This document shows, piece by piece, positions 54,619 to 55,623 of a stretch of 64,000 nucleotides of DNA. Below the pieces are notes generated by a model that had not been told where the DNA came from, searched no databases, and saw only the letters and a program-made list of their open reading frames with translations. The stretch lies in NCBI GenBank assembly GCA_020161615.1, contig JAIUPD010000002.1:124001-188000 (forward strand), read 5' to 3'. The translations under genes and the position numbers were made by a program. The stretch's first letter is position 1. Each line of letters starts with the position of its first letter. This DNA is from Pseudomonadota bacterium (GTDB taxonomy: Bacteria > Pseudomonadota > Alphaproteobacteria > Rhodobacterales > Rhodobacteraceae).

Positions 54619-55305
54619 ATGGGAAAACTGAACAAGATCCTGCTGGTGGACGATGACGAGGACCTGCGCGAGGCGCTGGCCGAGCAGCTGGTCGCGACCG
54701 AGGATTTCGACACGTTCGAGGCCGGCGACGGTGCCTCGGGCATGGAGCGCGTGCGCGAGGAACAATACGACCTGGTGATCCTGGACGTGGGCCTGCCCGA
54801 TACCGACGGGCGCGAATTGTGCAAGCGGATGCGCAAGGCCGGGGTGAAATGCCCGATCATCATGCTGACCGGGCAGGATTCGGACGCCGACATGATCCTG
54901 GGCCTGGATTCCGGCGCCAATGATTACGTCACCAAACCCTTCAAATTCCCGGTGCTGCTGGCCCGCATCCGCGCCCAGCTGCGCCAGCACGAGCAATCGG
55001 AAAACGCCGTCTTCCAGTTGGGCGAGTACCAGTTCAAGCCGGCGCAGAAGATGCTGGTCGACCCGAAAGAGCGCAAGATCCGCCTGACCGAGAAGGAGAC
55101 CAACATCCTGAAGTTCCTCTACCGGGCGCCCGATGGCCTGGCCCCGCGCGAGGTGCTGCTGCACGAGGTCTGGGGCTACAACGCCGGGGTCACCACCCAC
55201 ACGCTGGAGACGCATATCTACCGCCTGCGGCAGAAGATCGAATCCGACCCCTCGAACGCCCGTCTCTTGGTGACAGAGCCGGGGGGTTACCGGCTGGTCC
55301 CGTGA
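54619..55305 (+). CDS. OmpR-family response regulator (CenR-like possible)
   Basis: A 228-residue two-component regulator: receiver domain with acidic pocket D11-D13, phospho-acceptor D56 (LVILDVGLPDTDG) and K106 (TKPF), then a winged-helix DNA-binding domain with RKIRLTEKETNILKFLY and HEVWGYNAGVTTHTLETHIYRLRQKIE. The sequence as remembered resembles the alphaproteobacterial envelope regulator CenR, but that cannot be confirmed here. No histidine kinase gene is adjacent. It is followed by two small-RNA-like units. Confidence 0.88.
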   Translation: MGKLNKILLVDDDEDLREALAEQLVATEDFDTFEAGDGASGMERVREEQYDLVILDVGLPDTDGRELCKRMRKAGVKCPIIMLTGQDSDADMILGLDSGANDYVTKPFKFPVLLARIRAQLRQHEQSENAVFQLGEYQFKPAQKMLVDPKERKIRLTEKETNILKFLYRAPDGLAPREVLLHEVWGYNAGVTTHTLETHIYRLRQKIESDPSNARLLVTEPGGYRLVP

Positions 55306-55418
55306 CTGTTTCCGGGCCGGGGTCGCATTGTTGCCGGATTTACCCGGCATAAAGACTCTTCTGGCAGGCTGTGACTGTCAGTGGTTTTCCCTCCCCTGCG
55401 TGTCGGGGTCATGACACG

Positions 55419-55463
55419 CTCCTCCCTGTTGGACTGGCCCGGGCTTTGCCCGGGCCTTTTTTC
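55419..55463 (+). ncRNA. Candidate small RNA unit 1 (CTCCTCCC box plus terminator) after the response regulator
   Basis: CTCCTCCC (55419-55426) begins a box that continues TGTTGGACTGG and runs into a perfect terminator, GGCCCGGGC-TTT-GCCCGGGCC (55436-55456) followed by six T. CUCCUCCC is the signature of CcsR/'cuckoo' small RNAs of alphaproteobacteria and is complementary to Shine-Dalgarno sequences. A separate promoter is not obvious, so it may be the 3' end of the regulator transcript. Confidence 0.6.
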
Positions 55464-55507
55464 ATTTGCCCGGTCTTTCCGCCGCGCAACCGGGGTCAGG
55501 GGCGGGC

Positions 55508-55521
55508 TTGATCTGCATCAA
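55508..55521 (+). promoter_or_regulatory. Perfect FNR/FnrL box
   Basis: TTGAT-CTGC-ATCAA is an exact FNR consensus (TTGAT-N4-ATCAA). Its centre, 55514.5, is 41.5 bases before position 55556, and a -10-like TTTATC/TATCTG lies at 55542-55549, the geometry of a class II FNR-activated promoter. The only thing downstream on this strand is the small-RNA-like unit 2. Confidence 0.75.
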
Positions 55522-55555
55522 AGCAGCATCCGGCAGGCAGGTTTATCTGATGATC

Positions 55556-55610
55556 TCTCCCTGTTGGACTTGGGCCCCGACGCAGAGCCTGCGCGGGGCC
55601 TCTCTTTTCT
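55556..55610 (+). ncRNA. Candidate FnrL-activated small RNA, unit 2
   Basis: From the predicted start, the RNA would be only about 55 bases: a single-stranded TCTCTCCCTGTTGGACTT head and a terminator, GGCCCCG (55573-55579) pairing with CGGGGCC (55594-55600) with an inner CGCA/TGCG stem, followed by TCTCTTTTCT. The head shares CTCCCTGTTGGACT exactly with unit 1 (55422-55435 and 55557-55570). It lies convergent with the next gene and encodes no protein. Boundaries are inferred. Confidence 0.6.
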
Positions 55611-55623
55611 CAGGGCGCGGGCG

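Follow-up and report, generated by a model that had tools for sequence, protein, structure and literature searches.

A predicted hairpin-less SorX paralogue behind a putative FnrL-type promoter downstream of an ompR-type gene in the Rhodobacteraceae

The window, that is, the whole stretch of 64,000 nucleotides that was analysed, contains an open reading frame for an OmpR-type response regulator on the plus strand (54619-55305), for which 80 relatives were kept and whose counterpart in R. sphaeroides is ompR-1 (RSP_0847). Downstream on the same strand lies a copy of the small RNA SorX (SorX copy 1, 55391-55461), which matches the Rfam model RF02784 with 79.8 bits (cut-off 46.6) and consists of a 5' hairpin, a seed, CTCCCTGTTGGACT, at positions 55422-55435, and a terminator. 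It is placed between the ompR gene and a second unit, here called unit 2, which is predicted to encode a hairpin-less SorX-type small RNA of roughly 53 nucleotides with predicted ends at 55556 and 55608 on the plus strand. An exact FNR/FnrL-type box, TTGATCTGCATCAA, is found in the interval between the two units (55508-55521, no strand assigned), and a -10-like element, TATCTG, is located at 55544-55549 on the plus strand. Further Rfam matches over the cut-off in the window are the terC RNA (RF03067, 10256-10314) and the ffh sRNA (RF01793, 28714-28765).

Unit 2 consists of TCTCCCTGTTGGACTT, a GC-rich hairpin and the tract CTCTTTT, with a predicted fold of -26.6 kcal/mol. The putative seed of 14 nucleotides, CTCCCTGTTGGACT, is located at 55557-55570 on the plus strand, and RNA folding places the terminator-type hairpin at 55572-55601 on the same strand, followed by CTCTTTT. 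As in SorX, the seed is thus followed by an intrinsic terminator, and the unit is located downstream of an ompR-type gene, with its seed 254 nucleotides past the end of the ompR match. However, neither the fold nor the alignment contains a 5' hairpin ahead of the seed in the predicted RNA, and the SorX model gives only 19.2 bits over the unit (C2:179524-179606), which is below the gathering cut-off of 46.6. Unit 2 is therefore a SorX-type RNA, yet not a member of the family by the cut-off of the model. Since CTCCCTGTTGGACT is common to both, and this identity can be read directly from the DNA, unit 2 is by its sequence a tandem paralogue of SorX that has been stripped of the 5' hairpin. The sequence-only reading had missed this kinship, and a stand-alone novel RNA is ruled out by the neighbouring SorX gene and the identical seed. 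The same reading had described a -10-like element and a terminator-ended unit without coding capacity, and here it was right: open reading frames in the window cross the unit and none fits it, which rules out a coding role. Open reading frames that run across such units are usual in GC-rich DNA. A bidirectional terminator serving a convergent gene on the minus strand was also ruled out, since the hairpin is not followed by a run of T when the minus strand is read.

The exact seed of 14 nucleotides, CTCCCTGTTGGACT, is present at three places in the genome: SorX copy 1, unit 2 and C7:157975. The third copy belongs to a SorY-like RNA located after a LysR-type gene (L002 1501-1579, corresponding to G000:C7:157939-158015), which scores 56.3 bits against the SorY model RF02651 (cut-off 111) and 41.8 bits against the SorX model (cut-off 46.6), below the cut-off in both cases. 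As this copy is SorY-like, one seed is common to SorX, the SorY-like RNA and unit 2, and the sequences suggest that SorX and SorY may form one family. Unit 2 differs from SorY in that it lacks a hairpin and is found at another locus, and no match to RF02651 at the cut-off was obtained over it. Weak Rfam matches to SorX elsewhere in the genome were rejected as chance, as 11 of 14 control genomes also match.

In class-II FNR promoters, the box is centred near -41.5 and a -10 element is found at the matching place. The exact box reported in the sequence-only reading is present at its positions, and it is one of seven exact TTGATN4ATCAA sites in the genome (4,866,760 bases, 26 contigs), against none in a control in which the pattern was read backwards. 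Because the start was placed by counting the class-II distance of 41.5 from the centre of the box (55514.5), the resulting position 55556 is a prediction, with the TA of TATCTG at -12/-11. The start and the length of 55 bases proposed in the sequence-only reading (about 53 here) are both predictions. The distance from the box to the seed of unit 2 is 49 nucleotides. With the start so predicted, both the window and the logo of the family (50 of 64 units, see below) combine a box near -41.5 with a matching -10 element, a promoter-like architecture that is apparent in the DNA itself. Scans with consensus patterns listed no promoter and no terminator at unit 2, the latter perhaps because the T-tract is interrupted. 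No box of at least 8/10 was found ahead of SorX copy 1 in the region 40-99 nucleotides before its seed. The genome also encodes an FNR-type protein with the cluster cysteines, an FnrL-like protein at L185 with CGDCPIRHRAVCARC and the Pfam domain HTH_Crp_2, and the neighbouring gene, which is encoded on the other strand, resembles HemN; both names were assigned by eye.

Published descriptions assign SorX to the defence against singlet oxygen and organic hydroperoxides. In R. sphaeroides, SorX is described as located after an ompR-type gene and processed by RNase E (PMC6238624), an RpoHI/II promoter serves both RSP_0847 and SorX as one transcript (PMC3320616), and SorX represses potA in an Hfq-dependent manner (PMC9438474). 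Unit 2 resembles SorX in its position after the ompR-type gene, in the 14-nucleotide seed of the SorX copy in its own genome, in the terminator and in a potA-type predicted target, but differs in that it lacks the hairpin and has an FNR-type promoter of its own, whereas SorX of R. sphaeroides is processed from the RpoHI/II-dependent ompR co-transcript. A ChIP-seq study of FnrL in R. sphaeroides reported sites within putative promoter regions, namely those of RSs0019 and RSs2461, and established no effect for them (PMC4263372); RSs2461 is the former name of SorX (PMC5036791). A link between FnrL and SorX is thus partly known already. In the literature searched, mainly non-subscription sources available in part, no description was found of a boxed second SorX copy, nor of a tandem copy without the hairpin, of its promoter or of the pattern across the family, and no test of an anaerobic role of SorX was found. 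The accessible portion of the R. pomeroyi small-RNA paper (PMC4809877) yielded nothing for the ompR-SorX locus. PcrZ and PcrX of R. sphaeroides, set against unit 2 by description, differ from it in that their targets belong to photosynthesis. FnrS of Escherichia coli is longer than unit 2. Likened by description alone, FnrS is similar in being directly regulated by FNR and repressing its targets anaerobically (as cited in PMC4263372), but the same source notes that RSs2461 has no sequence similarity to FnrS.

Candidate targets were sought among translation starts. Two genes in the genome passed the potA cut-off, L213 and L212, and a pairing start was predicted for one of the two. The potA-type gene L213 carries AGTCCCAACAGGGGGAAG just upstream of a GTG start, which was chosen by us, and the seed of 14 nucleotides pairs with this region at -22.6 kcal/mol, a value reached by none of 2538 window tiles. 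The 20-nucleotide head of unit 2 reaches -26.1 kcal/mol (2 of 2822 tiles), and with a head of 23 nucleotides the optimum moves to a split pairing of -28.0 kcal/mol. The start of L212 did not pair (-10.4 kcal/mol). Six further transporter ATPase genes gave -8.1 to -18.3 kcal/mol with the head of unit 2, but for the 20-nucleotide head of SorX copy 1 one of these six, L216, equals L213 (-26.2 and -25.8 kcal/mol). Complements to the seed with at most two mismatches are not enriched in the genome, with 17 sites versus 29 in the control; three of the 17 are the RNA genes, one is an antisense element described below, and 13 are others. Three of these 13 sites, at L203, L204 and L208, are located 6-8 nucleotides before the ATG of frames of 152, 410 and 430 codons, and their seed duplexes have energies of -22.5, -19.4 and -15.5 kcal/mol, respectively. 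The idea that the potA-type start is the best mRNA partner was dropped, as the start at L203, which belongs to an unrelated gene, pairs equally well (seed -22.5 versus -22.6 kcal/mol, head -27.6 versus -26.1 kcal/mol). At L203 and L204, near the middle of each locus, the ATG follows the near-complement of the seed by six nucleotides, and the L204 frame starts with MRKITIVGGGQSG; on these sequences, both frames are possible further targets.

The potA-type starts were also compared between genomes. Fifteen genomes of the genus had a match, one of which was too short upstream, and in the remaining 14 the duplex energies range from -15.6 to -24.1 kcal/mol, with the motif AACAGGG in 8 of 14. For the best 29 of 51 potA matches from other genera, the energies are -9.5 to -19.1 kcal/mol and the motif is present in 5 of 29, the background mean over all loci being -11.5 kcal/mol; 43 of 44 loci were used in this run, with L302 too short upstream. 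Part of this pairing is due to the Shine-Dalgarno core. By sequence, potA is thus a plausible target of unit 2, helped by the fact that it is a published target of SorX, but it is not singled out by the computation. The earlier suggestion that the head could cover ribosome sites holds for the potA-type start and a few others among the starts compared, while the proposal that the targets are aerobic genes found no support.

Judging from these features, we consider it fairly probable that unit 2 is an FnrL-activated, shortened paralogue of SorX that represses translation at low oxygen. The sequence evidence for the promoter and its conservation is strong, and we infer transcription, the response to oxygen, the use of Hfq and the targets as follows. 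At low oxygen, FnrL would occupy the box at 55508-55521, and RNA polymerase would start near 55556. The product of about 53 nucleotides would comprise little more than the SorX seed and a terminator, and the seed, CUCCCUGUUGGACU, would pair with ribosome-binding regions, probably including that of a potA-type polyamine-transporter gene. The pairing would block translation, probably with Hfq, while SorX copy 1 and the third, SorY-like copy would supply an identical seed in response to different signals.

The best non-self complement to the seed among the complement sites is a conserved non-coding element on the minus strand of another contig (G000:C1:523930-524010; L016 ~1445-1535), which carries GGCCAGTCCGACAGGGAG, complementary to the seed, with a seed duplex of -26.3 kcal/mol. 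It contains a promoter-like pair, GTTGAC...TAGCGT, the core TAAGTCGGCCAGTCCGACAGGGAG and a terminator, and a search detected it in all but one of the 18 genomes of the genus (17 of 18) and in 2 of 22 others; a second antisense match in G222 (L239) extends over no more than the terminator and was set aside. The element is possibly a sponge or a relative of StsR, kinship to the latter being a guess. StsR is a 72-nucleotide RNA under the control of RpoHI/RpoHII, the loss of which raised SorX and SorY (PMC8307010). An alternative, which we regard as unlikely, is that unit 2 acts as a decoy, an FnrL-made RNA with another small RNA as its principal partner, which titrates this antisense RNA, or is titrated by it, and so alters the activity of SorX and the SorY-like RNA. 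It draws on the extent of the pairing, which comprises 14 contiguous pairs with the seed and 18 with SorX copy 1, including one G-U pair, and on duplexes of -26.7, -30.6 and -31.0 kcal/mol with unit 2, SorX and the SorY-like RNA, values that 2 of 2822 tiles reached in the first case and none in the other two. The conservation of the element within the genus and its promoter-like pair point in the same direction, as do changes in the core that keep the pairing through G-U. However, the core folds into a hairpin of its own, GTCGG-CCAGT-CCGAC, which could explain its conservation, and transcription of the element is itself a prediction. A decoy role would also be compatible with silencing of mRNAs, so that the two are not exclusive.

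The case for an FnrL-activated SorX paralogue was further examined within the genus, where a seed pattern of 15 bases with at most one mismatch gave matches in 18 of 18 genomes. The set comprised 20 stretches from 16 genomes together with the window and G222, and one stretch of the G408 type holds three units. A second unit is present downstream of ompR in 12 of the 18 genomes, and 11 of these 12 units are hairpin-less, end in a terminator and have a box 49-50 nucleotides ahead of the seed, so that the spacing in the window is kept (nine boxes of 10/10, two of 8/10). By comparison, a box scoring at least 8/10 is absent from all 19 hairpin-containing SorX units of the genus. The tandem second unit in G405 has a hairpin and no box, five genomes (G394, G395, G396, G401 and G409) have a single ompR-linked unit each in the stretches examined, and no ompR-linked seed was found in G407. 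The boxed unit is thus missing in 7 of the 18 genomes in the stretches examined; G396 and G401 are 80-82% complete, and the other five are 97-100% complete. When the 11 boxed units are aligned, the seed shows no variation in its 14 columns and the box hardly any, while the stretch between them is variable, a pattern of conservation that is seen in the aligned sequences themselves. The invariance of the seed is partly built in, because the units were gathered by an exact core of 11 bases, and strongly diverged copies would have escaped, since collection demanded both this core and a box scoring 8/10 or more. The TA at -12/-11 is present in 7 of the 11 boxed units, shifted by one or two bases in two and absent in two, as read from the alignment. 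A failure of the box and the unit to be conserved together had been named in advance as what would speak against the sequence-only reading; the check was run and did not refute it, with the seven genomes above as exceptions.

We consider it improbable that unit 2 is a decayed duplicate of SorX with a leftover box, perhaps transcribed but with no role. The loss of the 5' hairpin and the seven genomes of the genus without a boxed unit in the stretches examined are consistent with decay. Against it, the box, the spacing and the seed are held together while the intervening sequence drifts, and a comparable terminator hairpin folds in 18 of 18 units tested, seven of them from other genera, although the stems differ. 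Hairpin-less boxed units also recur outside the genus, at L064, L083, L109, L110, L115, L116 and L117.

Across the family, 394 genomes from 393 genera were searched with the pattern TTGAN6TCAA-N21-50-CTCCCTGTTGG and its N51-80 counterpart. The first pattern matched in 12 of 394 genomes and the second in 66, while the reversed-pattern control gave zero in every genome. The 78 units have gaps between box and seed of either 35-40 or 59-79 nucleotides, and the typical difference of about 30 nucleotides is near the length of the SorX hairpin. Of the 78 units, 74 have an ompR homologue upstream, in most cases no more than 120 nucleotides from the box. The 12 units with short gaps comprise seven without a hairpin and five (L106, L107, L108, L111 and L112, all from other genomes of the family) in which the box comes immediately after ompR and borders on the SorX hairpin, so that class-II activation is not possible; perhaps the boxes of these five serve repression, or are partly made up of the ompR stop codon. 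When these five are left out together with two poor boxes, L162 and L163, a geometry compatible with class II is found in 71 of 394 genomes, 64 of which have the spacing of a hairpin-type unit, so that the box is mostly ahead of SorX itself. For the promoter logo, 14 of the 78 units were omitted, namely the 12 with short gaps and L162 and L163, whose boxes lie before SorY-like units. Among the remaining 64, with gaps of at least 62 nucleotides, a TA is present at offset 36 from the box, corresponding to -12/-11, in 50 units; offset 37 has a TA in 12, and elsewhere between offsets 15 and 59 the number ranges from 0 to 12. Among 80 ompR loci, a set that shares some members with the units above, the exact seed occurs in 53 and two seeds in six, and a box is present within 100 nucleotides in 19 of 59 units, as compared with 0.085 expected from block shuffles. 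At four loci in other genomes of the family (L126, L131, L173 and L177), two seeds follow ompR and the downstream, hairpin-type unit is boxed, a layout that is by its sequence an analogue of the arrangement in the window.

We consider it very unlikely that the box controls something else, such as read-through from ompR-SorX, which it might block, or an antisense transcript, which it might drive. In favour are the palindromic nature of FNR boxes and the five family genomes (L106, L107, L108, L111 and L112) in which the box stands so close to the SorX hairpin that class-II activation of SorX is not possible, with the ompR stop codon perhaps supplying part of the box. Against it, the box in the window lies beyond the terminator of SorX, no unit other than unit 2 stands at the class-II distance from it, and no gene was seen to start leftwards from it. 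The FnrL control proposed in the sequence-only reading is supported by the FnrL-like gene, a boxed unit in 11 of the 18 genus genomes and the TA in 50 of 64 family units.

Taken at the level of sequence, these patterns suggest that SorX, an RNA of oxidative stress, is probably also used at low oxygen. A more tentative reading, to which we give limited credence as a whole, is that a single silencing seed of 14 nucleotides is the common output of opposite oxygen signals in the Rhodobacteraceae, with SorX and SorY-like RNAs made under stress on the one side and SorX or its tandem twin made under FnrL on the other, and that a conserved antisense RNA drains all copies. The tandem pair would be a clean natural case in which duplication gives one seed a second promoter. 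If control of the FNR type is as common as the 71 of 394 genomes suggest, an anaerobic role of SorX would be expected, and the FnrL ChIP-seq site reported near SorX in 2014 would gain meaning.
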